Positions 3,290 to 21,710 of a DNA stretch of 21,710 nt are shown one piece after another; the stretch's first letter is position 1; each line of letters opens with the position of its first letter. The notes beneath the pieces are model-generated. The model saw only the letters and a program-made list of their open reading frames with translations. It was not told the DNA's origin and did no database searches. The translations under genes were made by a program, and so were the position numbers. Origin of the DNA: a virus; IMG/VR virus record IMGVR_UViG_3300014501_001236, positions 1-21,710 of that record. One strand, 5' to 3'.

Positions 3290-4318
3290 ATGGCGAACAT
3301 CAACGAATTGATGGAAGGTTGGGGATTCGGCAAACAGACCGCCATCGGAACGGCGAATCTGGTCGCCGCCATCTGGCGTCATACCAATCTCAACACCAAG
3401 CCGTGGGCGAAGGTCCCGGTGAACGAGGACGACCGGGCTGAAATCGGCAAGGGACACGAATTCCCGACGCAGCTCTTCAAGTCGCACTACAACACGCCGG
3501 CCTTCGAGATTTCGAAGTACGCTTCCTCGGAGTTCCTCGCGTGGGCGATGTCTTTCGGTCTGGGCAACGTCACCGTGAGTGGCAGCGGTCCTTACACATA
3601 CACCATCGTTCCGGCGCTGGGAGCCACGAACCCGACCGGCCTCGAGCTGCCGTACTTCTCGTTCGTGCAGCAGATCCGCCCCGGTGGGTCCGCGGTGCTG
3701 GACGAGATGCTGGTGGGCTGCGCCGTCAAATCGTGGAAGCTCTCCATCAAGAACTCGCCCGGCCGCGCCAGCGCGATGTGCTCGGCGGAATGCGTTACGA
3801 CCGGGCAGTACACGTCGCCCAGCGGCATCACGCTGCCGGCCATCTCCACGCCGCACGAGTTCAATGCCGGGATGATCAGCGCTCTGACGTTCAACGGCAT
3901 CAACTACCTCTCCGGCGGCAGCGCCAAGCAGTTCGTGTCCATGGACGCCTCCTGGGAGAACAACTTCCGGCCCGGCTTCTTCCCCGGCTCGGGCGCTCAA
4001 GATGGCTACCAGATCCAGGGTCGCTTTGAGTGGGGCGACCGCGTCTTCGCCGTGCAGTTTGTGGTGCGCGTCCAGGCTGGATCGACCGAGTATGCGAACC
4101 TGATCAACCAGACAACCGGGACCGCCACGTTCACTGCGACGCGCGACGCCAACAATTCCTTCACGATGCTGATCCAGAAGATGGGCTTCAACGTCGCCGA
4201 ACTCGGAAACACCGATGGCATCGTGACGCTCCAGATCACCGGTGTGCAACTCTACGACCCCACCAACGGCATGGTGACGATGACCATCACCACGCCGCTA
4301 CAGGGCATCTGCCAATAG
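3290..4318 (+). CDS. Major tail tube protein
   Basis: This 342-residue protein is positioned where the major tail tube gene lies in siphoviruses, after neck genes and before the chaperone and tape measure genes. It has an N-terminal 'WGFGKQTAIGTANL' segment typical of this tail tube group. Many beta strands follow, including 'SWKLSIKNSPGRASAMCSAE', a duplicated-domain-like layout, and 'RFEWGDRVFAVQFVVRV' towards the C-terminus. Tail tube subunits stack as hexameric rings through which DNA passes. The length is at the upper end for the family and suggests an extra surface domain. A strong GAGGAG Shine-Dalgarno lies about 10 bases before the ATG, in keeping with a highly expressed protein. Confidence 0.82.
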   Translation: MANINELMEGWGFGKQTAIGTANLVAAIWRHTNLNTKPWAKVPVNEDDRAEIGKGHEFPTQLFKSHYNTPAFEISKYASSEFLAWAMSFGLGNVTVSGSGPYTYTIVPALGATNPTGLELPYFSFVQQIRPGGSAVLDEMLVGCAVKSWKLSIKNSPGRASAMCSAECVTTGQYTSPSGITLPAISTPHEFNAGMISALTFNGINYLSGGSAKQFVSMDASWENNFRPGFFPGSGAQDGYQIQGRFEWGDRVFAVQFVVRVQAGSTEYANLINQTTGTATFTATRDANNSFTMLIQKMGFNVAELGNTDGIVTLQITGVQLYDPTNGMVTMTITTPLQGICQ

Positions 4319-4327
4319 GAGTCTTGA

Positions 4328-4936
4328 ATGGAAACCGAAAAGAAAGCGGGCTTCGACGCATCGAAGCCTTTCGTGGTGCCGATCCTTTCGGGCGGCGAGA
4401 AGAGTTGCGAAGTGCGGTTCCCTTCGGACGAGGAGGGGTGTGCGTGGGCGCGCGCGCAGCGCACGGTGCGGCATTTCCTCGGACGCGGGAAGTCGCAGAG
4501 CGAGGATGTGGACCTGCCGAAGATCAACGCCGAACTGTTCGCCAAGATCCGCACGGACAAAGACGGTCCCGAGTTCGATGATGCCGAGGCCGGCATGGTG
4601 ATCGGTCGAATTGAACGGTGCGCCGTGGCCAGCGTGGAACGCGAAGGCATCAACTACCGGATCGAGATGAAGGTCCCCGGCGCACGTGTGGTTCATGTGC
4701 TGCGGATGCCGACCGCAAAGGAGATGCAGGACCACGAGCGGGCTTCGACAAGCGTTGTGGCCGCGCGGCGGTCGGTCGAGACGCGTGCGTTTCTGGAGCC
4801 GAGCGGCGCGCTCTACGAGAAGCTGCACATCTCACATGATGGCTACGCCGGCGCGGTGCCAATCGTTCACAAGTCGGCGGCGGTGTCCGAGGTGATCGCT
4901 CAACTGGCCATCGAGGCTGACGAAGACCCGGAATAA
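4328..4936 (+). CDS. Tail assembly chaperone-like protein (G position)
   Basis: The 202-residue product follows the tail tube gene and precedes the tape measure region, which is the usual site of the lambda G-type tail assembly chaperone. That chaperone binds the tape measure protein during tail assembly. I do not see a diagnostic motif. What is visible is a charged N-terminus and a 'EEGCAWARAQRTVRHFLGRG' helix. A beta-rich middle ('GINYRIEMKVPGARVVHVL') and a helical C-terminus ending in an acidic run follow. The Shine-Dalgarno TAGGAG overlaps the previous stop codon. The next gene is in the -1 frame relative to this one, and a candidate slip site and stem-loop lie at the junction, the arrangement used for G/GT frameshift fusion in lambda. 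The role is mainly positional inference. Confidence 0.6.
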   Translation: METEKKAGFDASKPFVVPILSGGEKSCEVRFPSDEEGCAWARAQRTVRHFLGRGKSQSEDVDLPKINAELFAKIRTDKDGPEFDDAEAGMVIGRIERCAVASVEREGINYRIEMKVPGARVVHVLRMPTAKEMQDHERASTSVVAARRSVETRAFLEPSGALYEKLHISHDGYAGAVPIVHKSAAVSEVIAQLAIEADEDPE

Positions 4937-4939
4937 CTG

Positions 4940-4969
4940 CGCCCGGCGACTGGCCGGAAGAGCCGGGCG
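4940..4969 (+). promoter_or_regulatory. GC-rich stem-loop, candidate frameshift stimulator
   Basis: Positions 4940-4947 (CGCCCGGC) are perfectly complementary to 4962-4969 (GCCGGGCG), giving an 8-bp all G/C stem with a 14-base loop. It starts three bases after the stop codon of the chaperone-like gene and six bases after the heptamer CCCGGAA at 4927-4933. No T-tract follows, so a Rho-independent terminator is unlikely. The spacing suits a stimulator of -1 ribosomal frameshifting, but the heptamer is not a canonical X_XXY_YYZ slip site. Confidence 0.4.
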
Positions 4970-4989
4970 TCCGATTCCTGATCCGGTCG

Positions 4990-5367
4990 GTGCTGCGCCA
5001 AGGCGGGCTGTGTGGCGCTGAGGAGGATTGTCCTGACCGCGTCCTCCGCTGCCGGAAGTGCGGTCACTCAGCGCAGGCAGAGTTGGATGGCTGCCCCGCG
5101 TGTGGGGCGGATTGGAAGGCCATTGACGTCAGCCACGGGCCGGGCTGTCCGAAGAACCTGCTCGAAGAGGCGATGGACACGCCGAACGGCGCGTTGGTCC
5201 GGCGATGCTTCCGCATTTTGAACGCAAAGAGTATCGGACTGACGATCACGCTGGCGGATGTTACGGAGGAGGAGTTCCGCGTGCTGGAACTCATCGAAGC
5301 CGAGCGCCAGGAACAGATGAGAGCCGGAGGTGCCGACGATCAGATATCGAGGCAGGCCGCAAGTTAG
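4990..5367 (+). CDS. Zinc-ribbon protein in the tail chaperone T position
   Basis: Read from the GTG at 4990 the product has 125 residues. The frame is open back to 4921 with GC-rich third codon positions, yet has no ATG, GTG or TTG before 4990. The GTG also lacks a clear Shine-Dalgarno. The protein may therefore be made as a -1 frameshift extension of the upstream gene. Residues C21-x2-C24 and C35-x2-C38 form a typical zinc ribbon ('CRKCG', 'CPACG'), with further cysteines at 8, 14 and 53. The C-terminal part is helical and acidic ('LADVTEEEFRVLELIEAERQ'). The position before the tape measure gene, although now separated from it by the DUF4365 gene, points to tail assembly. A zinc ribbon there is not usual in textbook systems. 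Confidence 0.6.
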   Translation: MLRQGGLCGAEEDCPDRVLRCRKCGHSAQAELDGCPACGADWKAIDVSHGPGCPKNLLEEAMDTPNGALVRRCFRILNAKSIGLTITLADVTEEEFRVLELIEAERQEQMRAGGADDQISRQAAS

Positions 5368-5409
5368 CTTCCTGCCCGGCGACAGCGTCAATTCATCGCC
5401 CGCGCGGCT

Positions 5410-6390
5410 CTACTTCTTAACCTGAGGGAACTTCAGAGCGCCCCTTTCTCGGAGCATCTCATCGAATCGTCGGGCGAAGGATGGATCGTGCATGCGAGGG
5501 TCCATGTACGCATATGAGACAGTCATCCTGCCGTCATCCTGGCCAGAAAGTTTGTTAAGGAAAGCAACTAGCTCCTGGTTTTCGAACCGCGGCTCGACGT
5601 GCGCCGTACGTCGCCGGAGTTCACGCAGGGCCTCTTCATAGTCTGGCTCTATGTAGCTCATGAGCTCATCGAAGGTTCCCCAGAAAAGGGCGTGATCGTC
5701 ACCCCAAATCGCCGTACTGCGGAGATACCATTCATCAATTGGCGGCACGTGGGCGCAAGAGAGACCCATGCGGAGGCGCAGTTCGATCAGGTGATGGTAA
5801 AACAACCGGCATTCGCCATCGACATCGTCAGGCAGCATCGACCACGGGTCGCCGAAACCGGCACCCTCCCGAAGATGTAAGAAGATCCGATGGAAGTGGG
5901 GTACCTCGCGAAGGATGTTTTCTGAAAACGCCGTGAACCACGATTGAAGTAGTTTCTCCAACACATCAAAACTGGACCCTAAAGATTGCTGCTCTTCAAA
6001 ACGCAGCGAGATGAATTTTGCCCCTGCCCGAGGCACCTGTGAGATTGGCAGGCTCCAATAGACGCCTTTGGTGTCCACATCACACAGAAGAGCGATGACT
6101 GGTACCGGCGTGGCCTTCCACAGGTTGTATGTAGATACGCTGACCGGAACCGAGGTCGTTCCGTTGGTCCATTCCGTGTTCGCCTGTCCCTTTATCTGGC
6201 CCTTGAAAATCCGCCCTGTGACGAGGTTCCTTTCAACAAGTTCGATTTCAGCATCAATGCCGAAATCATTCCTGCCTTCCTGGCGACGGAAAAGCCAACT
6301 CTGTCTCTCGAAAGCAGCTTGGACGTATGTGACAGCGAGATTCGCCGTTTTGTCCGTGTCGAGAGCTCGGGGAAGATTTCTGTCTTGCAT
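5410..6390 (-). CDS. DUF4365-family PD-(D/E)XK nuclease-like cargo protein
   Basis: A lone gene on the opposite strand to the tail operon. The ATG at 6390 gives 326 residues. An upstream GTG at 6441 would add 17 residues, and neither start has a strong ribosome binding site. The ATG leaves the short N-terminal lead usual in this family. The diagnostic block is 'NDFGIDAEIE' (residues 41-50, with D46) followed by 'IFKGQIKGQ' (about 61-69, with Q65-x-K67). These match the D...QxK core of PD-(D/E)XK-like domains in DUF4365 proteins. A 'PVPVIALLCDVDTKGVYW' segment near 95-112 is also typical. Residues 130-326 are helical and unassigned. A nucleic-acid-cleaving role is inferred from the fold. Base composition is visibly lower in GC than the tail genes: positions 5941-6000 hold 24 G/C in 60. 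This suggests separate acquisition. Confidence 0.75.
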   Translation of the reverse strand: MQDRNLPRALDTDKTANLAVTYVQAAFERQSWLFRRQEGRNDFGIDAEIELVERNLVTGRIFKGQIKGQANTEWTNGTTSVPVSVSTYNLWKATPVPVIALLCDVDTKGVYWSLPISQVPRAGAKFISLRFEEQQSLGSSFDVLEKLLQSWFTAFSENILREVPHFHRIFLHLREGAGFGDPWSMLPDDVDGECRLFYHHLIELRLRMGLSCAHVPPIDEWYLRSTAIWGDDHALFWGTFDELMSYIEPDYEEALRELRRRTAHVEPRFENQELVAFLNKLSGQDDGRMTVSYAYMDPRMHDPSFARRFDEMLRERGALKFPQVKK

Positions 6391-6500
6391 CGTTGCGACA
6401 CCGCACAGGTCGCGAAAGCTGTTCAGCGGGACCGATAACACTTGATCGTAACCCTTCCCTCAACCGCAAGCACCTCCAACATGTTGCCTCCGAGGTAGCC

Positions 6501-6960: not shown

Positions 6961-9900
6961 ATGGCAGACCAAGCAGAGCGCGTAATCCTCGAAGCCGAGG
7001 ATCAAGTCAGCCCCGTAGTGGACAAGGCCAACGCCGGCCTCGACAGCTTCGAGAAGAAAGCGGAATCGTCGCACGCCAAGGTCATCCGGATTTCGGATCA
7101 GACGCGGTCCAGCGTGCAGCGGCTCATCGCCTCCCTCGAAAAGCAGGCCGAAACCTACGGCAAGAGCGGCGTGGACCGACTGATCACCCAGCGGGACCAG
7201 CTTCTCCAGCGATACAATCGCGAACCGCAGGCCATCGACGCGATCACCAGGTCTTACGAAAAGATGATCGCCGCGGAAGAGAAGGTAGCGCGTGAAGCCC
7301 TCGCAGTCAAGGCGGCCAAGGAAGCCGAAGAAGCTCTGCAGAAGCAGTCCGAATCCATCAAAGCGTTCGGCGAGCGCGTCGGCCAATTCATGGAGAATCC
7401 GCTCCAGGGAGCCAAAGGCGCAATCTCGTCCGTGCTTACGGCTCTTGGGCCCTTTGGTATCGCGGTCGCCAGCGGCGCGGCCGTTCTGGGAACCATTGCC
7501 GTTTCCGCATTCGAAGCCGCCAAGAGTCTCGGGGAATATGGCACGCGCGTGAAGGACGCCGAACTACGCACCGGTTTGACAGCGAAGGAAGTCGGGCAGT
7601 TTGGCTTCGCGGCGCGCGCGGTCGGGCAGGACATTTCGATTGTCGAACGCCTGATGCGCGGCCTGTCCCAGGCGGCGAACGATAATTCCAGCGAAGGTGA
7701 AAAAGCGCGGGCGACGATGCGCGCGATGGGCATTGATTTCCACACCGCCACCGGGGAGATGAAACCCACCTCCGAGATTCTGGTGGAGATCTCCGAGGGC
7801 TTGAACAAACTTCCCGAAGGATTTCAGCGGGACGCCGCCGCTATGGAACTGTTCAAGAAGGTCGGTGTCGAGGCGATTCCGTTCATGACGGAACTCAATG
7901 AGAACCTGCGCGTCGCCCACGAGCAGGGCTTCGGCCCGACCGAGGAGGACATACGCCGCTTCTCCGAATACCAGCGTGAAGTAACCGTGCTCGAAACCAA
8001 GTGGGATTCGCTGGTCCGCAAGTTCAAAGAAGGGCTGGTCGTCACCGTGACCTGGGTCGGCAAGGGCGTCGACTGGTTCCTCAACAACATCTCGACCGCC
8101 GGCGACGACGAGCGGGAACACCGCGAAGAGATCCAGGCCCTTCAGGATGCGGCGCAGATTAAGGCGGCGGGTGGTTACGGCGCGAGCATGTCGATCAGCG
8201 GCCATCGCAAGGATGTGGCCGACCTGGAGCGGCGGGCCCCGGACATCATGAAGAACCGAGATGCCACCTTGAAGCGCATCGAGGATTTACGGGCAGAGCA
8301 GCAGCGGTTGACCGGTGACTTCGGTGTTCTGCAAGCGATAGCCCCCACTCGCGATGAGGAGGCCCGCGAAAAGCAGGCCAGCGATATCCAGGGCCAGATC
8401 CAGCAGTTGCAGAAGATGCTGCAGGATGCCGAGGCGGCCACCAAGCGGAAAGACCTGCATGAAGGCAAGGAAGAGACGGATCGAATTCGCGCCCGCTTCT
8501 TCGGTACCCACGACGGCATGGAGAAGGCATACGCTGACGCCAAGAAGGATGTGGAGCGCCTCCAGGAGCAGCTGCTCGAACCGGATAAGCCGTTGACGAA
8601 GGCTCAGGCGCTGGATCTGGGTCAACAACTCCACACTGCGGAAGCTACGGAAGCGCGCCGCAAGGCGGCACTGGATGCGGTTGCAAAGGGATCGGAACAG
8701 CTCAAGGATTTCCGTCGCCAGGCGGCCGAGTTCGAGAAGAAGGGCGACGAAGCGGAACTGGACGCGATCGGCAAAATCTATTATCAGCGGGACAAGCTTC
8801 TGAAGCAGGCCGCGCAGGTGAAGGCGTCGGAATCGGAGATCGCGGCGATCCGAAAGGCGGCGGACGTACAGGCAGCGGTCATATCCAAGAAGGCGTGGGA
8901 GGAGTTTGAGAAGTACGCCGACAAGCAAGCTGCCGACCAGCGGAAGAAAATGCTCGCGCTCATGATGCCGAGCAAAGAGCAGATGAAGGAGTGGGAAGAA
9001 GGCTTCGCCGCGCAGGAACGGATCGAGGACATCGGGGTCCAGGCGCAGCGCGATGAATTGCGGCGGCGCGCGGCGCGATCCGGGCGCATGGCGGAACTGA
9101 CTACAGGGCAGGAAACGCCGATGGCAATGTCTGAGGCCGAAAAGCGGGAACTGGCAGCCCGTAAGGAAGAGGCAGCAGCGCATCAAGCCTACCAAATCAG
9201 ATTCGATCTGGCCGTCCAGTTGGCGGGCATCGAAGCGGAGCGGATAGCGAAAGAAGAAAACGCGGCAAAACGCTCCGTCCTGGCCGCGCAGGCGCAGAAG
9301 GATCTGTTCACGGAAATCGCGCAGGCGCAGGATCAGTTCGAGGAAAAGCAGGCGCAGCTCCAGCAGAAACGCGAGCAGGAGTTGCAGTCGCAGATCGATG
9401 GGCTACAGAAGCAGGCCGAGAAACTGATCGACGTTCTGCTCACCAAGCCGGCGAACTTCGGCAAGGATTTGCTCAACACGATCCACTCTGCTGTGCTCAA
9501 GCCGATTACCGAGACCCTGGGCGGCGCGGTGGCGAATGTGCTGCATCCCGTCATCTACGGATCGGACGGGCAGGGCGGAATTAACGGGATGTTACGTGGC
9601 ACGTCAAAGGACCCGGTACGCGTGTCCACCGACCAGAACACCGCGGCGACCATGCAGAACAGCGCGGTGATGGCGGGGTTGACTGCCATCCTCGCCACCG
9701 GGATGGGGATCGCGGCTCCGCACGCGTCTGGAGGAAACTCCGGTGTCCCGAGTATTTCGGTCCCATCGATCTCGGTGCCCGCGCCGGTATCCGGGTCCGT
9801 CGCAATGAGCATGCCGACCTTGTCGGGATCTGGCGCAGGGACATCGCTCCCCGGACCAATCGTTACCGCCGGCGCGGCTCCGGCCGCAGGACCGAGCGTG

Positions 9901-10875
9901 GGCGACCTGATGAATCTTCCGATGAGCGCGCACGCTGGTGCTGGCATGAACCCACTCGCTACGATTCTGGGCTCCGGCTCCAAGGGCGGCACATCCAGTC
10001 TCTACGGGATGTTCAGCAAGGGCGGCTTCTCGAAGTCGCTCTCCAACTTGAAAGGCACGTTCTGGAACCAGGACGCATGGAACGCCTCTGATAGCAACTT
10101 CTGGGGTGGCGTACAGGGCGTCGCGAAGTCTCCCGCCGCCGGAGCCGCTGGGATGATGCTCGCGACCAGCGGACTGTTCGGATCGCAGCGTGGGACATGG
10201 ACGGGCGCTCTTGAGGATACCGCCGGTGGCGCATTGATCGGCGAACAGATCGGCGGTCCATGGGGAGCCGCGATTGGAGCGACGGCGGGTTTCACTGCCG
10301 GAGTGGTCGAGAAACTTCTCGGAATCGAGTCGCCGCAGAGGAAGGCTCACGACGACATCAAGAGCATCTACGGCGTAGACATCCCGCAGAACAGCGGCAC
10401 CATCAAGCAGGTGGTCCAGATCGCGCAGTCCCAGTTCGGCGGCGACATTGCAGTGGCTGTACGCTCCCCGAGTGTGCGTCAACTGGTGATGCTGTATTCG
10501 GAAGCCACGGGCCAGAAGATGCCACTGTCGGCCACGACGCCTTACGCCGGGAGCCTGATGGAGCAGGGTGGCAAGCTTTATCAACAAGCCAGCTACCAGG
10601 ATGGTCAGGCGCACGTCTACGCTTCGAACATTCCAACGCTCGGCGGTATCGCAGCCGGGACCTATCCCACGCCGGGCAGTCCGAACACGGCAGGAGGTAC
10701 CGGCGCAACGTACATGTCGCTGAACATCAGCGGAGCCGACGCGGCGAACTTCATGACCGGACAATTCGTCACACCCCAGTTCGTAACCGACCAGGCGATG
10801 GCGGCGCAGTATTCGAGCTACGGCCGCACACAGCAATCGGCCAACATGCAACTACCTGGATTGACGGTGGCGTGA
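6961..10875 (+). CDS. Tail tape measure protein
   Basis: At 1304 residues this is the characteristic long helical gene after the tail chaperone region. The N-terminal 150 residues are coiled coil, rich in Lys, Glu, Ala and Gln. A hydrophobic, Gly/Ala-rich segment near 155-190 ('LTALGPFGIAVASGAAVLGT') could insert in a membrane during DNA ejection. A 'RTGLTAKEVGQFGFAARAVG' region follows, common in tape measure proteins. About 390-840 is long charged coiled coil. About 905-1010 is a Gly/Ser/Pro low-complexity linker. A second glycine-zipper-like segment lies near 1088-1115 ('GGALIGEQIGGPWGAAIGAT'), ahead of a globular C-terminal domain. By family, the protein sets tail length and is ejected with the DNA. 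No lysozyme or peptidase motif was recognised inside it. Confidence 0.88.
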   Translation: MADQAERVILEAEDQVSPVVDKANAGLDSFEKKAESSHAKVIRISDQTRSSVQRLIASLEKQAETYGKSGVDRLITQRDQLLQRYNREPQAIDAITRSYEKMIAAEEKVAREALAVKAAKEAEEALQKQSESIKAFGERVGQFMENPLQGAKGAISSVLTALGPFGIAVASGAAVLGTIAVSAFEAAKSLGEYGTRVKDAELRTGLTAKEVGQFGFAARAVGQDISIVERLMRGLSQAANDNSSEGEKARATMRAMGIDFHTATGEMKPTSEILVEISEGLNKLPEGFQRDAAAMELFKKVGVEAIPFMTELNENLRVAHEQGFGPTEEDIRRFSEYQREVTVLETKWDSLVRKFKEGLVVTVTWVGKGVDWFLNNISTAGDDEREHREEIQALQDAAQIKAAGGYGASMSISGHRKDVADLERRAPDIMKNRDATLKRIEDLRAEQQRLTGDFGVLQAIAPTRDEEAREKQASDIQGQIQQLQKMLQDAEAATKRKDLHEGKEETDRIRARFFGTHDGMEKAYADAKKDVERLQEQLLEPDKPLTKAQALDLGQQLHTAEATEARRKAALDAVAKGSEQLKDFRRQAAEFEKKGDEAELDAIGKIYYQRDKLLKQAAQVKASESEIAAIRKAADVQAAVISKKAWEEFEKYADKQAADQRKKMLALMMPSKEQMKEWEEGFAAQERIEDIGVQAQRDELRRRAARSGRMAELTTGQETPMAMSEAEKRELAARKEEAAAHQAYQIRFDLAVQLAGIEAERIAKEENAAKRSVLAAQAQKDLFTEIAQAQDQFEEKQAQLQQKREQELQSQIDGLQKQAEKLIDVLLTKPANFGKDLLNTIHSAVLKPITETLGGAVANVLHPVIYGSDGQGGINGMLRGTSKDPVRVSTDQNTAATMQNSAVMAGLTAILATGMGIAAPHASGGNSGVPSISVPSISVPAPVSGSVAMSMPTLSGSGAGTSLPGPIVTAGAAPAAGPSVGDLMNLPMSAHAGAGMNPLATILGSGSKGGTSSLYGMFSKGGFSKSLSNLKGTFWNQDAWNASDSNFWGGVQGVAKSPAAGAAGMMLATSGLFGSQRGTWTGALEDTAGGALIGEQIGGPWGAAIGATAGFTAGVVEKLLGIESPQRKAHDDIKSIYGVDIPQNSGTIKQVVQIAQSQFGGDIAVAVRSPSVRQLVMLYSEATGQKMPLSATTPYAGSLMEQGGKLYQQASYQDGQAHVYASNIPTLGGIAAGTYPTPGSPNTAGGTGATYMSLNISGADAANFMTGQFVTPQFVTDQAMAAQYSSYGRTQQSANMQLPGLTVA

Positions 10876-11416: not shown

Positions 11417-12826
11417 GTGCGAGGTTCCGTGTTCGGAAAATGGCTGAAGAGCGGATCGCGAACAGGCAACGAAGAACTGCGCTTTCAGTCTCCTTCGACA
11501 GCCGCAGCCGATATCGAGGCGTTGGTTGAATACCTCGGGCGAATGGACTCGGACCGATTCGTCTACCGCGGCCAGATCAAAGAATGGCCCGGCCCCCTGA
11601 TCCCATCACTGTTTCGTCGGTCAGTTCGGCTAAAGCGTGTGTTCACACCTAGAGATGCTGAGTACCGACAGTCTCTACGTCATTGCGGTCGAAGTTTCAT
11701 AGAAATGAAACCCGATAGCTACATCGAATGGCTAGTCCGGGATATGAACGATGGCCGATTAACACAGCACGATTATCAATCGCTGGTTAAACTATCCTCG
11801 AATGCAGATTTTGCTGCGCTTGCTGCGAACTCCGGTTTCGATACCGCGTTGTCGAAGTACGTTCGTGCTGAACACTGGTCCTATGTTTCTGAGCGGCGTC
11901 ACATCTGGAAGACAATTCTAGATGCCCAGCATTGCGCCATGATCCGGCAACTGGCGTTCATCCAGCCATTTGGGTACGTGCTCGGCATGACACTCGCACA
12001 GCAGTATGGTTTTGCTTCTGAACTACTCGACTTTACAGCCGACATCAAAGTCGCAGCGTTCTTCGCTACCCACGACGCACCCAACTACAAGTTTGAAGGC
12101 TGCGCCCTTAGCCGTCGGGCTGGGTCGGATGTAGGCGTCGTTTATCGGTTGCCTTCGGCGGCTGGCGCGATCAGACATGACCGTGTTGACAGCTATAACT
12201 ACCACACCTGTCCGCCACAGCTCCACTTAAAGGATGTGTGCATTCGTTTCGAAGATGATTCATCCCCTGAGATGCGTGAACAGTGGGTCCCAAGACTTTT
12301 CCATGAAGAGGCGATCGGTCTCGTGAACGCCGCAATTCCTCTTCGGTTCATGAATGCGATGCAAACAGAGGATGAGACGACTCACCGGCCCCTGCCGCAA
12401 ACTGAGGGAATAGATCGATACCTCGCCCTGTATTACCAAGATGGTACTGGAAACGTGCGCTACTACCGGCTTCTGAATCAGGCGCCCGGGTCGTTTTCTC
12501 GTTCGAGACTTGGCCGACAGAGTGCTGTCATGATCGTTCCAGATGAACTCCGTATTGCCGAGAAGGAACCGGGCCAGTTTGAGAGTGCTGTTTTTCAGGC
12601 CGTCGAGGACGTAAGCCAGCGCGAAGGCTTCGAACGATTTTATTTCCGTCATTCGGAGCGGGCTCCTGCTCTTGCCAACGTGGATCGGGAGTGGTTGTGG
12701 CCCCACGAAGAAGATTGCTTCAAGCTCATGATTTCGCGGGTGCTCGACCCCTCGTCGCAGCAATATTGGTTCGGGGACGACCCGATCCCAAAGCGCCTCG
12801 ATCTTGTGTCACCTGGTTATTTGTGA
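11417..12826 (+). CDS. FRG-domain cargo protein
   Basis: This 469-residue gene is on the same strand as the tail genes but has about 118 and 196 bases of non-coding flank and visibly lower GC (positions 11701-11760 hold 28 G/C in 60). The N-terminal half shows the FRG signature. It consists of 'RFVYRGQIKEWPGPLIPSLF' (about 47-66) and, near 191-218, 'LAQQYGFASELLDFT' followed by 'KVAAFFAT'. In typical members the second block reads close to 'AQH.G.PTRLLDWT', so the His and the Thr-Arg pair are substituted here. FRG domains are widespread in mobile elements and I know of no firmly established biochemical activity. The second half (about 230-469) has no motif I recognise. No membrane segment or signal peptide is visible. 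It starts at GTG 11417 or GTG 11429. A defence or host-manipulation role is inferred only from context. Confidence 0.75.
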   Translation: MRGSVFGKWLKSGSRTGNEELRFQSPSTAAADIEALVEYLGRMDSDRFVYRGQIKEWPGPLIPSLFRRSVRLKRVFTPRDAEYRQSLRHCGRSFIEMKPDSYIEWLVRDMNDGRLTQHDYQSLVKLSSNADFAALAANSGFDTALSKYVRAEHWSYVSERRHIWKTILDAQHCAMIRQLAFIQPFGYVLGMTLAQQYGFASELLDFTADIKVAAFFATHDAPNYKFEGCALSRRAGSDVGVVYRLPSAAGAIRHDRVDSYNYHTCPPQLHLKDVCIRFEDDSSPEMREQWVPRLFHEEAIGLVNAAIPLRFMNAMQTEDETTHRPLPQTEGIDRYLALYYQDGTGNVRYYRLLNQAPGSFSRSRLGRQSAVMIVPDELRIAEKEPGQFESAVFQAVEDVSQREGFERFYFRHSERAPALANVDREWLWPHEEDCFKLMISRVLDPSSQQYWFGDDPIPKRLDLVSPGYL

Positions 12827-17442: not shown

Positions 17443-18273
17443 TTATGGGACATTGGGAAACGTCTCGCCCTTGTACAGGGGTTTGCAGATCCCCACCGAA
17501 GTTTCGTAACGACTGATGCAATCGTTGAGAAACGTATATGTGTTCAGGTACTTGCCTCTTACTTCCGGCTGCAAGTCCTCGCGCTGGCTCTCAGCACACA
17601 ACCATTGGGCACATGTCTTGAGCGACAGCCTGCGCTTCTTCATCATGTGCAGAGTTCGGCAGGTCACTGGATTGAGCACAAGAGTGTCTCGGGAGCCAGA
17701 CTTGAAGGGAACGGCGTAGTACAGATACGGTTCGTCAACGAGCCGAAACCCGTCGCTTAGGCCAGTCAACTCATCGTGAGGGAAATCGATGACAGTACCA
17801 GACCAGTCTTGCGCTTTCTCCAACTGGAAGCACCTGTCGATCTCGCGGATGGTAATCAATCGTGGACCGATCATATATGATTCAGATGCTGTGATCACGC
17901 CGCGTAGCGGTACGTGATATCGAATCAGAAGCGTAAGATAGAGTGTCGCGGCGAATTCCAGGAAGAAATCGAAGCGTCCCCACAAGGACCCTCTTCGTAC
18001 ATCCTTTAGAAACACCATCAACGTGTCAAACGCGAAGAAGACTGAGAAGTCACCTTCCGAAAGCGGCCGGAAGAAGTCGCGAATCCCTGCAGGGTCCTTC
18101 GCATTCATGCTCCTCCGGCGCTCCGTGGCCGTTTGAGTGATCGACACGGTAGTGGAAACGCTAGCAATAGCGTTGGACAACAGGCGGTGCAATCCACGGG
18201 TGCCCAACTGTTCCAAAAACGACCGATATCCCAAGACGTCTGCGTAGAAGAACAAACACGCCTTCGCACTCAT
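17443..18273 (-). CDS. Putative nucleotide-cyclase-fold cargo protein
   Basis: A lone opposite-strand gene, 276 residues from the ATG at 18273; a TTG at 18282 would add three. The motif order suggests a class III nucleotidyl cyclase-like fold. 'FFYADVLGYRSFLEQLG' holds D12, resembling the first metal aspartate strand ('F.Di.GF'). 'FSVFFAFDTLMVFL' holds D83, in the place of the second metal aspartate. 'VPLRGVITASESYMIG' then matches the 'RGgI..G' strand, and a helix follows with 'QLEKAQDWSG'. Related uncharacterised proteins carry 'SDs/t' and 'dW.Gv' at these points. Substrate-selecting residues cannot be assigned and the usual 'GD' is not conserved. The remaining 110 residues are unassigned and no membrane effector is encoded nearby. 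Local GC is low (17881-17940 holds 29 G/C in 60). A signalling role in defence is inference; it could also be an inactive cyclase-fold protein. Confidence 0.5.
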   Translation of the reverse strand: MSAKACLFFYADVLGYRSFLEQLGTRGLHRLLSNAIASVSTTVSITQTATERRRSMNAKDPAGIRDFFRPLSEGDFSVFFAFDTLMVFLKDVRRGSLWGRFDFFLEFAATLYLTLLIRYHVPLRGVITASESYMIGPRLITIREIDRCFQLEKAQDWSGTVIDFPHDELTGLSDGFRLVDEPYLYYAVPFKSGSRDTLVLNPVTCRTLHMMKKRRLSLKTCAQWLCAESQREDLQPEVRGKYLNTYTFLNDCISRYETSVGICKPLYKGETFPNVP

Positions 18274-18344
18274 CGTCCACAATCTATCCCATTCCGACCC
18301 GTTCAGGGTATGCCTGATCGAGTCTATTGGCGAGCGGCCTAGTC

Positions 18345-21300
18345 ATGGACCAGATCTACAAGCTGCAGCCGCATCGCACCATGGCCCTGCAGGGCTTTGA
18401 CGACTACGGCGCGGCAGCCGCGCTGTGGAGTGCCTCGGACACCGGGTTCACCGTGTCCGGTGTGTTCCGCGACATGGCCGATTTCGCCGTCCTGGTCCTG
18501 TTTCAGAAGGACGATCCGTTCGGGCACCCGCTCTTCTCCTATCTGCCTGACGGCGATCTCACGGGTCTCGTGCTCGATTTCGATGTCACCTGGCAGGGGA
18601 TTCAGTCCTGGGAGTCGCTCAAGAACCCGTGGACCGACTGGAACACGCTCGACTACTCCATCAACGGCGTCGGCCACAACGACGTGAAGTGGATCGGCAC
18701 GCCCGGCATCACCATCACGTGCAACACAGCGGGGCGCGCCGGAGCGTCGGCCACCTTCACGCTGAACATGGTGAGTCCGCAGGCCGGCGACAAGGTCACG
18801 CTCTGGTATCAGAACCAGTCGTTCATCAGCCCTGCGATCATTCTCGGCAATCCGACCACCGACCAGGCTCTGTGGTGGCAGGGATCGGTGGCGACTACCG
18901 ACCAAGCCCTGTGGTGGCAGGGGAACGCGGCCTACAACCACTGGGTAAAGATCGGCTCGGCCACGTACTCCTGCCTCGAAGATTCGCTGAACAGCGCGGG
19001 CGTTGCCAACAATATTGCCAGCCAGATCAACGCCTCCGATCCTAATTGTTCCTGCACCACAGGAGGCGCCTACGGCAACGAGATCTTCATTTCGCTGAGG
19101 TCCGGTAAGTACGGCCCCGTGGCGGTGTCTAGCTCAGACGGCTCTGGGGGCGCCACGCTATCGAACTACCAGCACTGGGTGAAGATCGGCAGTGTCACGT
19201 ATTCCTGCTACGAAGGGTCGTTGAACAGTGCCCAGATCGCGGCCAACGTCGCAGCGCAGATCAACGTTTCCGACCCAAACTGCACGGCCACGGTGGGAGG
19301 TCAGTACAACAACGAGATCCTCATTACGCTGAAGGCCGGCGTAGCGGGCCCAATTGCGGTATCGAGTTCGGATGGTTCCGCGGCTGCATCGTTGACCCAA
19401 GGCACGGTTGCCCCGACCATCCTGATCAACATCGCGAGCCAGATCAACGGAACGAACTGGGTGCTGAACGGCCCCGCCGTGCTCAGCGCCTCCGTAGTGT
19501 TGCCGAACCAGTTGGTGATCACGGCCACGGCCGGAGCTGACGGAAACATGGTCGCGTTCTACCAGACAGACAACAACAGCAGCAGCCGGCTCTACTTCAC
19601 CGCGAGCGACTGGAACCTGTCCGGCGGTTCATCGGATAACGTTTCGTGGCACGTGCACATCGATTTCACGACCCTCGGCTGGAACAATGTGGATAAGGTC
19701 TGGTGGACCATCGCTCCATCGCTCCCCAACCGCCAGGCATACCAGTCAACGGAGTGGCAGATGGTCGTCACCAATTGGACGGTGACCAGCAGCCCGGCGT
19801 CCAAGCGCGCGCTAAAAGTTGCCGGGCCGGGGTCGGTTCGGATCGAAGAAGACAGCACGTGGGTCAGCACCTCCGGATTCTGGGAAGCCGCCCCCGGCAA
19901 CGACCCCGTGAATGGCGCGTTCGCCTTCTGGAGCCAGGGACGGGCGATCCGTGCAGCGGCTTCCGGTGCCAGCGTCACCATCGAGACGCATTGCCAGTAC
20001 ACGCACGGCATCTACGTCGGCACGCGCCTCGATACCACCTGCGGCATCGTAACCGCAACGCTCGACGGCGGCGCGCCGGTCACACTCGACTGCTACTATC
20101 CCGCAGCCACCACCTCGCAGACGCGGCGGTTGCTCTTCTCCGGCGTCGCGGCAGGCCAGCACGAGGTAGTGATCACGCTCTCGGGCAACAAGAACGCATC
20201 GAGCCAAGGCTGGTACTTCTATTTCGACTTCCTCGAATGCGCTGTGGCGAGCGACGTTCCCGATCCGGTCTCGACAACTACCGCCGTAGCCGTGGCCACC
20301 GACTTTGACACGGACAACACCTACAAGCTGTCGCCGCAAAGGCTGGTGTGGAACATTCAGAAGCTCGGGCTGCTGGGCGAGATAGATCACTACTGCGGCG
20401 TCTTCTGGTGGAAGCAGGCAGTGGCGTCAAATCCGTCCTACCCGCAATGCACGGTCACATTCTCCGGGAGCTGGAACGATCAGGATGTCGTTTGGCTTCA
20501 CGTTGGTGGCTCTGCCATCGGCAAAACGGTGTTCGGCGGGCAGGACAGTAGCAACACTATCGCCCGGCACTTCGCCAATTTCATCAATGCCATCTTCGAC
20601 GGTGCCTGGGCTTCGGCCACCGGCAGCGTCCTGACGATCACCGCGCATTCGTTCTCCAGCGTCTGGCAATTTCACGTGTACAAGGAACTGCCCGTCTCGA
20701 ACACCGGTAGCGGCCAGGCCACCGTGACGGGAGATCTTCAGGGCGGAACCTACGGTGTGACTTGGGTGATCGATCCGACCCAAACGCCGGTGCTCAACCG
20801 GGCCTTCCGCGATTGGAACACGGATTTCTTCAGCCTTCTCAAGACCAATAACATGAGCGTGGTTTGCTCGTTTTCGCAGGAACTGGTGCAGCCGCCGGAC
20901 AACCCAGCCGGTGGCGCGGTGTGGGTTCAACGCTTCCCCGACGGCACGGCGGTGGAAACTGCAACCGGATTCGGGACGTTGAACAGTTCGCAAATCGCCT
21001 TTAGTTCGGGGCCGCAGAACTATCTGGGCCAGGCCTTCGCCGCGATGGCAGGTCTGATGTTGGCTGCGGGACTCACGCCGAAGCTCCAGTTCGGTGAAAT
21101 TCTCTGGTGGTTCCTGGCGAACTCGTCCGGGATGGCGTTCAACGATGCTGACACGCAGGCCGCCGCACAAACGGCGCTCGGCCGCGCGCTGGTGACCTTT
21201 CACACGCCGAACGACGATCCCTCGGTCAACAGCTACGCCGACGCGAACTTCCTGCGCACGCGCCTGTACAACTATGTGGCCGCGATCCAAGGCTACGTCT

Positions 21301-21710
21301 TATCGCAGTGCCCGGCGGCGATCTTCGAACTGCTGTGGCCGATGGACGTGAACGACCCGGACAACTGTCGCCTGCTGCGGTATATCAACCTGCCGTCGCA
21401 GTGGACGGCGCGCGCGGGCTCCGGCTTCGACACGTTCCTCATCGAGGGCTATCAGTACCCCGGCTTGAACCACAACCTCGACCAGGCGATCCGATGCGCA
21501 CAGTACCCGTGGAAGGAACTCGCCTGGGACCAGGCACATTGCCGTTACCTGATGGGCCTCTACTACGGCACCTGGCCGTGGATGCGCGAGTTCGTGAACG
21601 TCAGCCGCCTCGGGCTGCCAGCAATCAAGCTCTGGGCTTACGACCACCTGCGCTTGTTCGGATGGCCGATACCGTTGCCCACGACCGATGACCGCTCGTT
21701 CATTTACTGA
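18345..21710 (+). CDS. Large tail protein with internal repeats and TIM-barrel-like region
   Basis: The 1121-residue product starts at the ATG at 18345; a TTG at 18327 is less likely. The N-terminal 130 residues ('YKLQPHRTMALQGFDDYGAA') form one domain. Two 13-residue repeats (171-183, 184-196) and two 78-residue repeats (197-274, 275-352) follow. The 78-residue repeats each run from 'HWVKIGS' to 'AVSSSDGS'. A jelly-roll-like module follows near 500-640, where 'ATLDGGAPVTLDC' suggests carbohydrate binding. From about 655 a second 'YKLSPQRLVWN' start leads into a region like the TIM-barrel domains of gene-transfer-agent and phage tail proteins. Its candidate catalytic Glu residues are E918 ('LQFGEILWW') and E1034 ('FLIEGYQY'). 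It may bind or cleave host surface glycans. Alternatively it is a purely structural sheath or fibre around the tail, as TIM-barrel tail sheaths of non-contractile tails have been described. The gene is complete at the window end. Confidence 0.7.
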   Translation: MDQIYKLQPHRTMALQGFDDYGAAAALWSASDTGFTVSGVFRDMADFAVLVLFQKDDPFGHPLFSYLPDGDLTGLVLDFDVTWQGIQSWESLKNPWTDWNTLDYSINGVGHNDVKWIGTPGITITCNTAGRAGASATFTLNMVSPQAGDKVTLWYQNQSFISPAIILGNPTTDQALWWQGSVATTDQALWWQGNAAYNHWVKIGSATYSCLEDSLNSAGVANNIASQINASDPNCSCTTGGAYGNEIFISLRSGKYGPVAVSSSDGSGGATLSNYQHWVKIGSVTYSCYEGSLNSAQIAANVAAQINVSDPNCTATVGGQYNNEILITLKAGVAGPIAVSSSDGSAAASLTQGTVAPTILINIASQINGTNWVLNGPAVLSASVVLPNQLVITATAGADGNMVAFYQTDNNSSSRLYFTASDWNLSGGSSDNVSWHVHIDFTTLGWNNVDKVWWTIAPSLPNRQAYQSTEWQMVVTNWTVTSSPASKRALKVAGPGSVRIEEDSTWVSTSGFWEAAPGNDPVNGAFAFWSQGRAIRAAASGASVTIETHCQYTHGIYVGTRLDTTCGIVTATLDGGAPVTLDCYYPAATTSQTRRLLFSGVAAGQHEVVITLSGNKNASSQGWYFYFDFLECAVASDVPDPVSTTTAVAVATDFDTDNTYKLSPQRLVWNIQKLGLLGEIDHYCGVFWWKQAVASNPSYPQCTVTFSGSWNDQDVVWLHVGGSAIGKTVFGGQDSSNTIARHFANFINAIFDGAWASATGSVLTITAHSFSSVWQFHVYKELPVSNTGSGQATVTGDLQGGTYGVTWVIDPTQTPVLNRAFRDWNTDFFSLLKTNNMSVVCSFSQELVQPPDNPAGGAVWVQRFPDGTAVETATGFGTLNSSQIAFSSGPQNYLGQAFAAMAGLMLAAGLTPKLQFGEILWWFLANSSGMAFNDADTQAAAQTALGRALVTFHTPNDDPSVNSYADANFLRTRLYNYVAAIQGYVLSQCPAAIFELLWPMDVNDPDNCRLLRYINLPSQWTARAGSGFDTFLIEGYQYPGLNHNLDQAIRCAQYPWKELAWDQAHCRYLMGLYYGTWPWMREFVNVSRLGLPAIKLWAYDHLRLFGWPIPLPTTDDRSFIY
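18855..18932 (+). repeat. Two tandem 39-bp repeats
   Basis: Two in-frame copies (18855-18893 and 18894-18932) encode 'TTDQALWWQGSVA' and 'TTDQALWWQGNAA'. The first ten residues are identical, while their 30 bases differ at four positions, all silent third positions. This indicates an old duplication kept under selection at the protein level. Confidence 0.85.
18933..19400 (+). repeat. Two tandem 234-bp repeats (78-residue module)
   Basis: Copy 1 is 18933-19166 and copy 2 is 19167-19400, in frame and abutting. By hand alignment without gaps about 51 of 78 residues are identical. The best conserved parts are 'HWVKIGS.TYSC', 'SDPNC', 'NEI.I.L' and 'AVSSSDGS'. Each module looks like a small beta-rich domain with one helix. 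A more divergent third copy may follow at about 19401-19600 ('NIASQING' ... 'LVITATAGADGN'). Confidence 0.85.

Follow-up and report, generated by a model that had tools for sequence, protein, structure and literature searches.

The window, by which we mean the whole 21,710-base stretch analyzed here (a metagenomic virus record), very probably carries a programmed −1 frameshift cassette in a tail chaperone locus of the G/GT type, belonging to a siphovirus-like phage of soil Acidobacteriota. On the strength of sequence comparison, we put the probability of this reading at about 0.92. In the mechanism that we propose, the majority of ribosomes would terminate at 4934 and release a G-like protein of 202 amino acids. 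A minority would pause on C CCG GAA, aided by the stem-loop at 4940–4969 and perhaps also by the GAGG at 4913, and their tRNAs would slip back by one base, the Pro codon CCG re-pairing as CCC and the Glu codon GAA as GGA through a central G:U pair. Reading in the −1 frame from the ATA at 4933 to the stop codon at 5367 would then give a GT-like fusion of 346 residues. The features of the locus are collected in Table 1.

Table 1. Features of the proposed frameshift locus and its neighbors, with positions in the window
Feature	Position	Strand	Basis
Probable major tail (tube) protein gene	3290..4318	+	Position; counterpart in prophage L380
Gene 1 ("G"), 202 aa, proposed N-terminal part of a tail assembly chaperone	4328..4936	+	ORF
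GAGG, possible internal Shine-Dalgarno-like stimulator	4913..4916	+	Tentative
Gene 2 ("T" extension), open −1 frame, 144 aa	4921..5367	+	ORF, conservation
Candidate slippery heptamer C CCG GAA (−1: CCC GGA)	4927..4933	+	Conservation across relatives
TAA stop of gene 1 (relatives mostly have TAG)	4934..4936	+	Sequence, relatives
Stem-loop, proposed stimulator	4940..4969 (arms 4940–4947 / 4962–4969)	+	Folding, conservation
Tape measure protein gene	6961..10875	+	PHROG tail length tape measure, E 2.4e-10

Read directly from the sequence, the 3′ end of gene 1 is GAC (4925), CCG (4928), GAA (4931), and TAA (4934–4936). The −1 frame is bounded upstream by a TGA at 4918–4920, is open from 4921 onward, and closes with a stop codon at 5365–5367, giving an overlap of 16 bases between the two frames. 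A preliminary description made from the letters of the window had placed gene 2 in this frame with this overlap, and all of its coordinates hold. After the shift, reading of gene 2 would begin at 4933 (ATA). The predicted frameshift product, 202 + 144 = 346 residues, agrees with the earlier estimate of about 345. The stretch 4937–4989 had also been said to lack a standard start codon, and indeed no ATG, GTG, or TTG is present in the −1 frame of the window upstream of the GTG at 4990. Transcriptional slippage was rejected as an explanation because the site is without a long homopolymer.

Virus contigs were scanned with gene 1 and gene 2, and more than 120 near relatives were found among the matches listed. 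The virus-contig scans listed up to 80 loci, closest first, and thus cover the less divergent part of the near clade. The gene pair is also present in five Acidobacteriota genomes (Bryobacterales, Solibacteraceae, and others) and, because these genomes carry near relatives, we take the host group to be Acidobacteriota. The near set was reduced to 89 distinct junctions, leaving out L151, which has a damaged junction.

Conservation at these 89 listed near junctions is pronounced at the end of gene 1. The heptamer is CCCGGAA in 82 of them, CTCGGAA in 5, TCCGGAA in 1, and ATCGGAA in 1, and the string GGAA-T is invariant (89/89). The last codon of gene 1 is likewise GAA in every case, compared with 1162 GAG and 379 GAA (75% versus 25%) at the other Glu codons of the gene. 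No in-frame CCCGGAA was found in 1602 control stretches of gene 1. Conservation of the overlap in relatives had been proposed earlier as a check; we observed it at all 89 near junctions and in the distant group described below as well. Overlap, frame, heptamer, and stem are jointly conserved in the 89 relatives, beyond what chance would produce. Given the metagenomic origin of this virus record, one might suppose that these are two separate genes whose overlap was made by chance or by assembly, gene 2 being decayed or joined through a sequencing error. However, the same arrangement recurs in 89 distinct near and 60 distant junctions, from viral contigs as well as cellular genomes. The 89 distinct junctions rule out a sequencing artifact, and we regard this explanation as a whole as scarcely credible.

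The pattern of variation beyond the stop codon points to translation in the −1 frame. In the 75 aligned near junctions free of indels, the entropy over 4937–4989 was 0.12, 0.13, and 0.58 at the first, second, and third codon positions of the −1 frame, in agreement with the earlier characterization of this stretch as coding-like. Past the stop codon, variation thus falls on third positions as counted in the −1 frame, and we therefore conclude that 4937–4989 is probably translated in that frame. The preliminary description had named two findings that would speak against frameshifting, a clear start for gene 2 in relatives and −1-frame stops across the junction. Near relatives have no conserved start for gene 2, and the 77 tabulated contain no −1-frame stop in the interval from the heptamer to gene 2. 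The first standard start codon available is the GTG at 4990, which is present in 58 of the 77 near relatives. If gene 2 began there, the preceding 53 bases would be untranslated. However, the other relatives have GTA, GTC, or GTT at this place, as expected for the third position of a Val codon; no ribosome-binding site is in view; and the preceding region is under protein constraint in the −1 frame, including a G[DE]WPE.P motif that is common to near and distant relatives. Initiation at 4990 is thus rejected by conservation and by the distant relatives, and we consider it very improbable.

The strongest evidence for the frameshift comes from these distant relatives. A gene 1 profile searched against the family of one host genome gave matches in 42 genomes, and the distant gene 1 copies in these Acidobacteriota genomes are 29–37% identical to that in the window. 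Among 65 distant junctions, a gene 2 homologue was detected at 61 and lies in the −1 frame at 60; the exception is L327 (frame 0), for which a one-base indel past the junction is the probable cause. A canonical X XXY YYZ heptamer is present within the final 30 nt of gene 1 at 53 of the 65 junctions (CCCAAAC at 38, AAATTTT at 8, GGGAAAC at 4, and AAAAAAC, GGGTTTC, and GGGTTTT at 1 each), against a background of 3 in 1145 control stretches from the same genes. Most of the remaining junctions have either TTT followed by the stop codon (AGT TTT TAG and similar, with a run of five T) or AAATTTT slightly more upstream. GAC CCG GAA TAA in the window occupies the exact place of the commonest distant form, GAC CCA AAC TGA.

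When 77 proteins encoded by gene 1 were placed on a tree, the CCCGGAA clade and its variants formed one group, and the heptamer types require at least 16 changes on this tree. The exact sister of the CCCGGAA clade, and hence the polarity of the replacement, is uncertain because of long branches.

The distant junctions also bear on the possibility that ribosomes reinitiate at a non-standard AUA codon (4933–4935), which overlaps the stop codon of gene 1, and so translate gene 2 separately. All near relatives have ATA or ATG at exactly that place (ATA in nearly all, and ATG only with a TGA stop, in 5 of 89), and ATGA overlaps are a common form of translational coupling. The ATG of these TGA-stop relatives would permit independent initiation there, which counts against the frameshift reading. 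However, distant relatives have CTG or TTA as the codon overlapping the stop, with no conserved start there, and still keep gene 2 in the −1 frame. Selection for initiation should favor ATG, yet TGA stops are found in only 5 of 89 cases versus 52 of 266 long upstream ORFs. Moreover, the GAGG lies 16 nt from the ATA, beyond the ordinary distance of a ribosome-binding site, and an AUA start would leave the canonical heptamers of the distant relatives unexplained. Conservation and the distant relatives led us to reject this start, which we regard as unlikely. The G/GT-type frameshift originally suggested for the gene pair is, by comparison, supported by conservation, by the −1 frame, by the canonical heptamers of distant relatives, and by the gene order of prophage L380 (see below).

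We infer slippage itself, its rate, and the identity of the slipping tRNAs from these comparisons, and the window heptamer is not a textbook case. CCCGGAA departs from the classical heptamer pattern (XXX, followed in frame by YYY consisting of A or U), which occurs only in the distant relatives. The preliminary description had called the heptamer weak for tandem slippage, a doubt that published work eases. The window heptamer exactly matches the "threetwotwo" motif of PRFect, a hypothetical −1 motif of which CCCGGAA is the commonest form in the SEA-PHAGES frameshift data (BMC Bioinformatics 2024, PMC10885494). For the heptamer GGGGGAA, the same study proposed that the Glu tRNA re-pairs with GGA through a G:U pair (PMC10885494).

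Seven near relatives have CTCGGAA, TCCGGAA, or ATCGGAA, which, like the non-classical form of CCCGGAA itself, counts against the frameshift reading; for CTC and ATC, re-pairing in the P site is expected to be poor. Because these exceptions keep GGAA-T and lose part of the Pro-site re-pairing, a slip of tRNA-Glu alone beside the stop codon appears viable. The essential slip in this clade might therefore involve one tRNA-Glu only, moving from GAA onto GGA with UAG or UAA in the A site, or the requirement at the Pro codon may be loose; we hold this variant as tentative and the less probable one. If true, it would represent a stop-adjacent −1 frameshift via a G:U pair in the middle position, evolved from a classical tandem site. 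The peptide across the junction would differ between these routes. A tandem slip, or a slip of tRNA-Glu, would give DPE-ITAPGDWPEEPG (DPE-ITAPGDW). The junction peptide predicted in the preliminary description, "DPGITAPGDW...", would arise only if the Pro tRNA slipped alone before decoding of GAA. The alternatives at the junction would thus be DPE-ITAPGDWPEEPGVR for a tandem or Glu slip and DPG-ITAPGDWPEEPGVR for a Pro slip.

The heptamer is followed 6 nt later by a perfect 8-bp stem with arms CGCCCGGC (4940–4947) and GCCGGGCG (4962–4969), an arrangement noted at the outset and borne out by the sequence and by folding. The stem extends to 9 bp with a G-U pair and has a predicted energy of −20.4 kcal/mol. 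Taken alone, in a single GC-rich window sequence, it is not striking: compared with dinucleotide shuffles it has a z score of −1.1, and 25 of 200 shuffles fold equally well. When synonymous codons were shuffled so that the gene 2 protein was kept, the stem position gave a mean z of −1.5 in near and −1.7 in distant relatives, with values of about 0 in four control windows downstream. The synonymous sites 4941, 4944, 4965, and 4968 within the stem are nearly invariant in the near group. Of the few stem changes in this group, half replace C by U opposite G and one forms a compensatory pair (L080); this covariation is slight, as variation in the near clade is too scarce to make it proof. These data suggest that the stem is likely a stimulator of the frameshift.

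A Shine-Dalgarno-like element may possibly act as a second stimulator. The GAGG in the window is located 10 nt 5′ of the heptamer and is the sole motif of this kind in the near group, in which GAG is present at that Glu codon in 77 of the 89 listed relatives. Among the distant junctions, 42 of 65 have AGGAG, GGAGG, or AGGAGG shortly upstream.

The chaperone identity of gene 1 and gene 2 is suggested by gene order and by the frameshift. The product of gene 1 (4328–4933) has an AlphaFold model with a pLDDT of 92, apparently built of beta-beta-alpha repeats, and the predicted model of the gene 2 product has a pLDDT of 88. Neither protein gave a significant match to Pfam, PHROGs, PDB, or BFVD, or any match among 50,697 phage records. 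The missing match weighs against the reading, but known tail chaperones of the G/GT type have little sequence in common, and a chaperone would be compatible with it. Because no known family or fold was matched, we infer the chaperone function from position and from the frameshift itself. The gene at 3290–4318 had no convincing family match of its own. In prophage L380, the order is a tail protein (phrog_290), gene 1, gene 2, and directly downstream the tape measure gene. The window has two genes, one of cargo and a small one, between gene 2 and the tape measure gene.

Gene 2 of the window also encodes a zinc-ribbon-like segment (CRKCG...CPACG, at about 5040–5150) that is absent from most distant relatives and present in the group L364/L366/L367. 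Because this distribution is patchy, the segment appears to have been gained or lost within the T extension.

The proposed mechanism is already known from phage lambda, and the presumed function is ordinary; the candidate heptamer is what is unusual. In lambda, gpG and gpGT are encoded by overlapping ORFs before the tape measure gene, the second in the −1 frame and without a start codon, with a slippery heptamer close to where the first ORF terminates, and the fusion consists of the chaperone and a part that binds the tail protein (PMC5009743). The window pair is similar in having an overlap, a second ORF in the −1 frame without a start of its own, a heptamer at the end of the first ORF that is conserved as a slip sequence, and a position between a tail protein gene and the tape measure gene. 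Downstream RNA structure, a frequent but not universal component of G/GT loci, is present as well, and its stimulatory role is putative. Unlike the lambda proteins, those of the window do not detectably resemble a known chaperone in sequence or fold, the heptamer is the non-classical CCCGGAA, and the shift would occur immediately beside the stop codon.

The −1 cassette of Escherichia coli dnaX consists of an upstream Shine-Dalgarno-like element, the heptamer, and a downstream stem-loop, in the same order as here. It differs in that the upstream element in the window is merely GAGG, the heptamer is another one, and the purpose would be a C-terminal extension rather than a truncation. For the GGGGGAA tail chaperone site of actinophages such as corynephage phi16, an internal GAGG Shine-Dalgarno sequence and a 3′ structure were proposed (PMC5506516). 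The A-site step from GAA to GGA would be the same in the window as at these sites (PMC5506516), whereas the P-site codon would be Pro (CCG to CCC) in the window and is Gly (GGG to GGG) in the actinophages, and a simple stem-loop takes the place of the proposed pseudoknot. In PRFect, the "threetwotwo" motif is hypothetical and derives from annotation statistics (PMC10885494), whereas here it is a conserved site of one phage clade.

We found no report of a tail chaperone frameshift in Acidobacteriota phages in a literature search, and the present case would document one. The classical heptamers at the homologous place provide evolutionary evidence for CCCGGAA as a working −1 site. The value of the case lies in this apparent interchange, at a single homologous position, of CCCGGAA and classical slip sites, and the family may serve as a natural site-replacement series for testing which codon-anticodon re-pairings are tolerated by ribosomes.

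Aside from the junction, the DNA directly 3′ of gene 2 differs in nearly every near relative, revealing a hypervariable cargo site bounded by gene 2 and the tail gene that follows (5368–6500 in the window, with a homologous site in about 85 relatives). In 85 loci, the site is empty in L072 and L212 (8–9 bp), holds 38 bp in L151, and ranges from 0.4 to 4.3 kb in the rest, the largest being that of L011 (4.3 kb). These loci contain 100 cargo ORFs of at least 100 amino acids in 91 clusters. Many cargo matches are to known or candidate defense genes (Lit, AbiU, PifA, capP, QatA, and restriction enzymes), and further ones are to toxin or TIR domains. The window carries a DUF4365 gene as its cargo (minus strand, 5410–6441, E 6.6e-18), with a weak match to the PADLOC model Aga_REase-PNTD1-PNTD2.

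Additional cargo sites are possible further downstream. A second one may be represented by an FRG-domain gene in the tail module (11417–12826), which matches the candidate defense model PDC-S15 (E 2e-12). A third may lie between two large tail genes, where a minus-strand gene of 279 amino acids (17443–18282) is without a family match. Finally, a TIM-barrel domain belonging to the non-contractile tail sheath family is present (E 1.4e-20) in the large open-ended ORF at 18327–21710.
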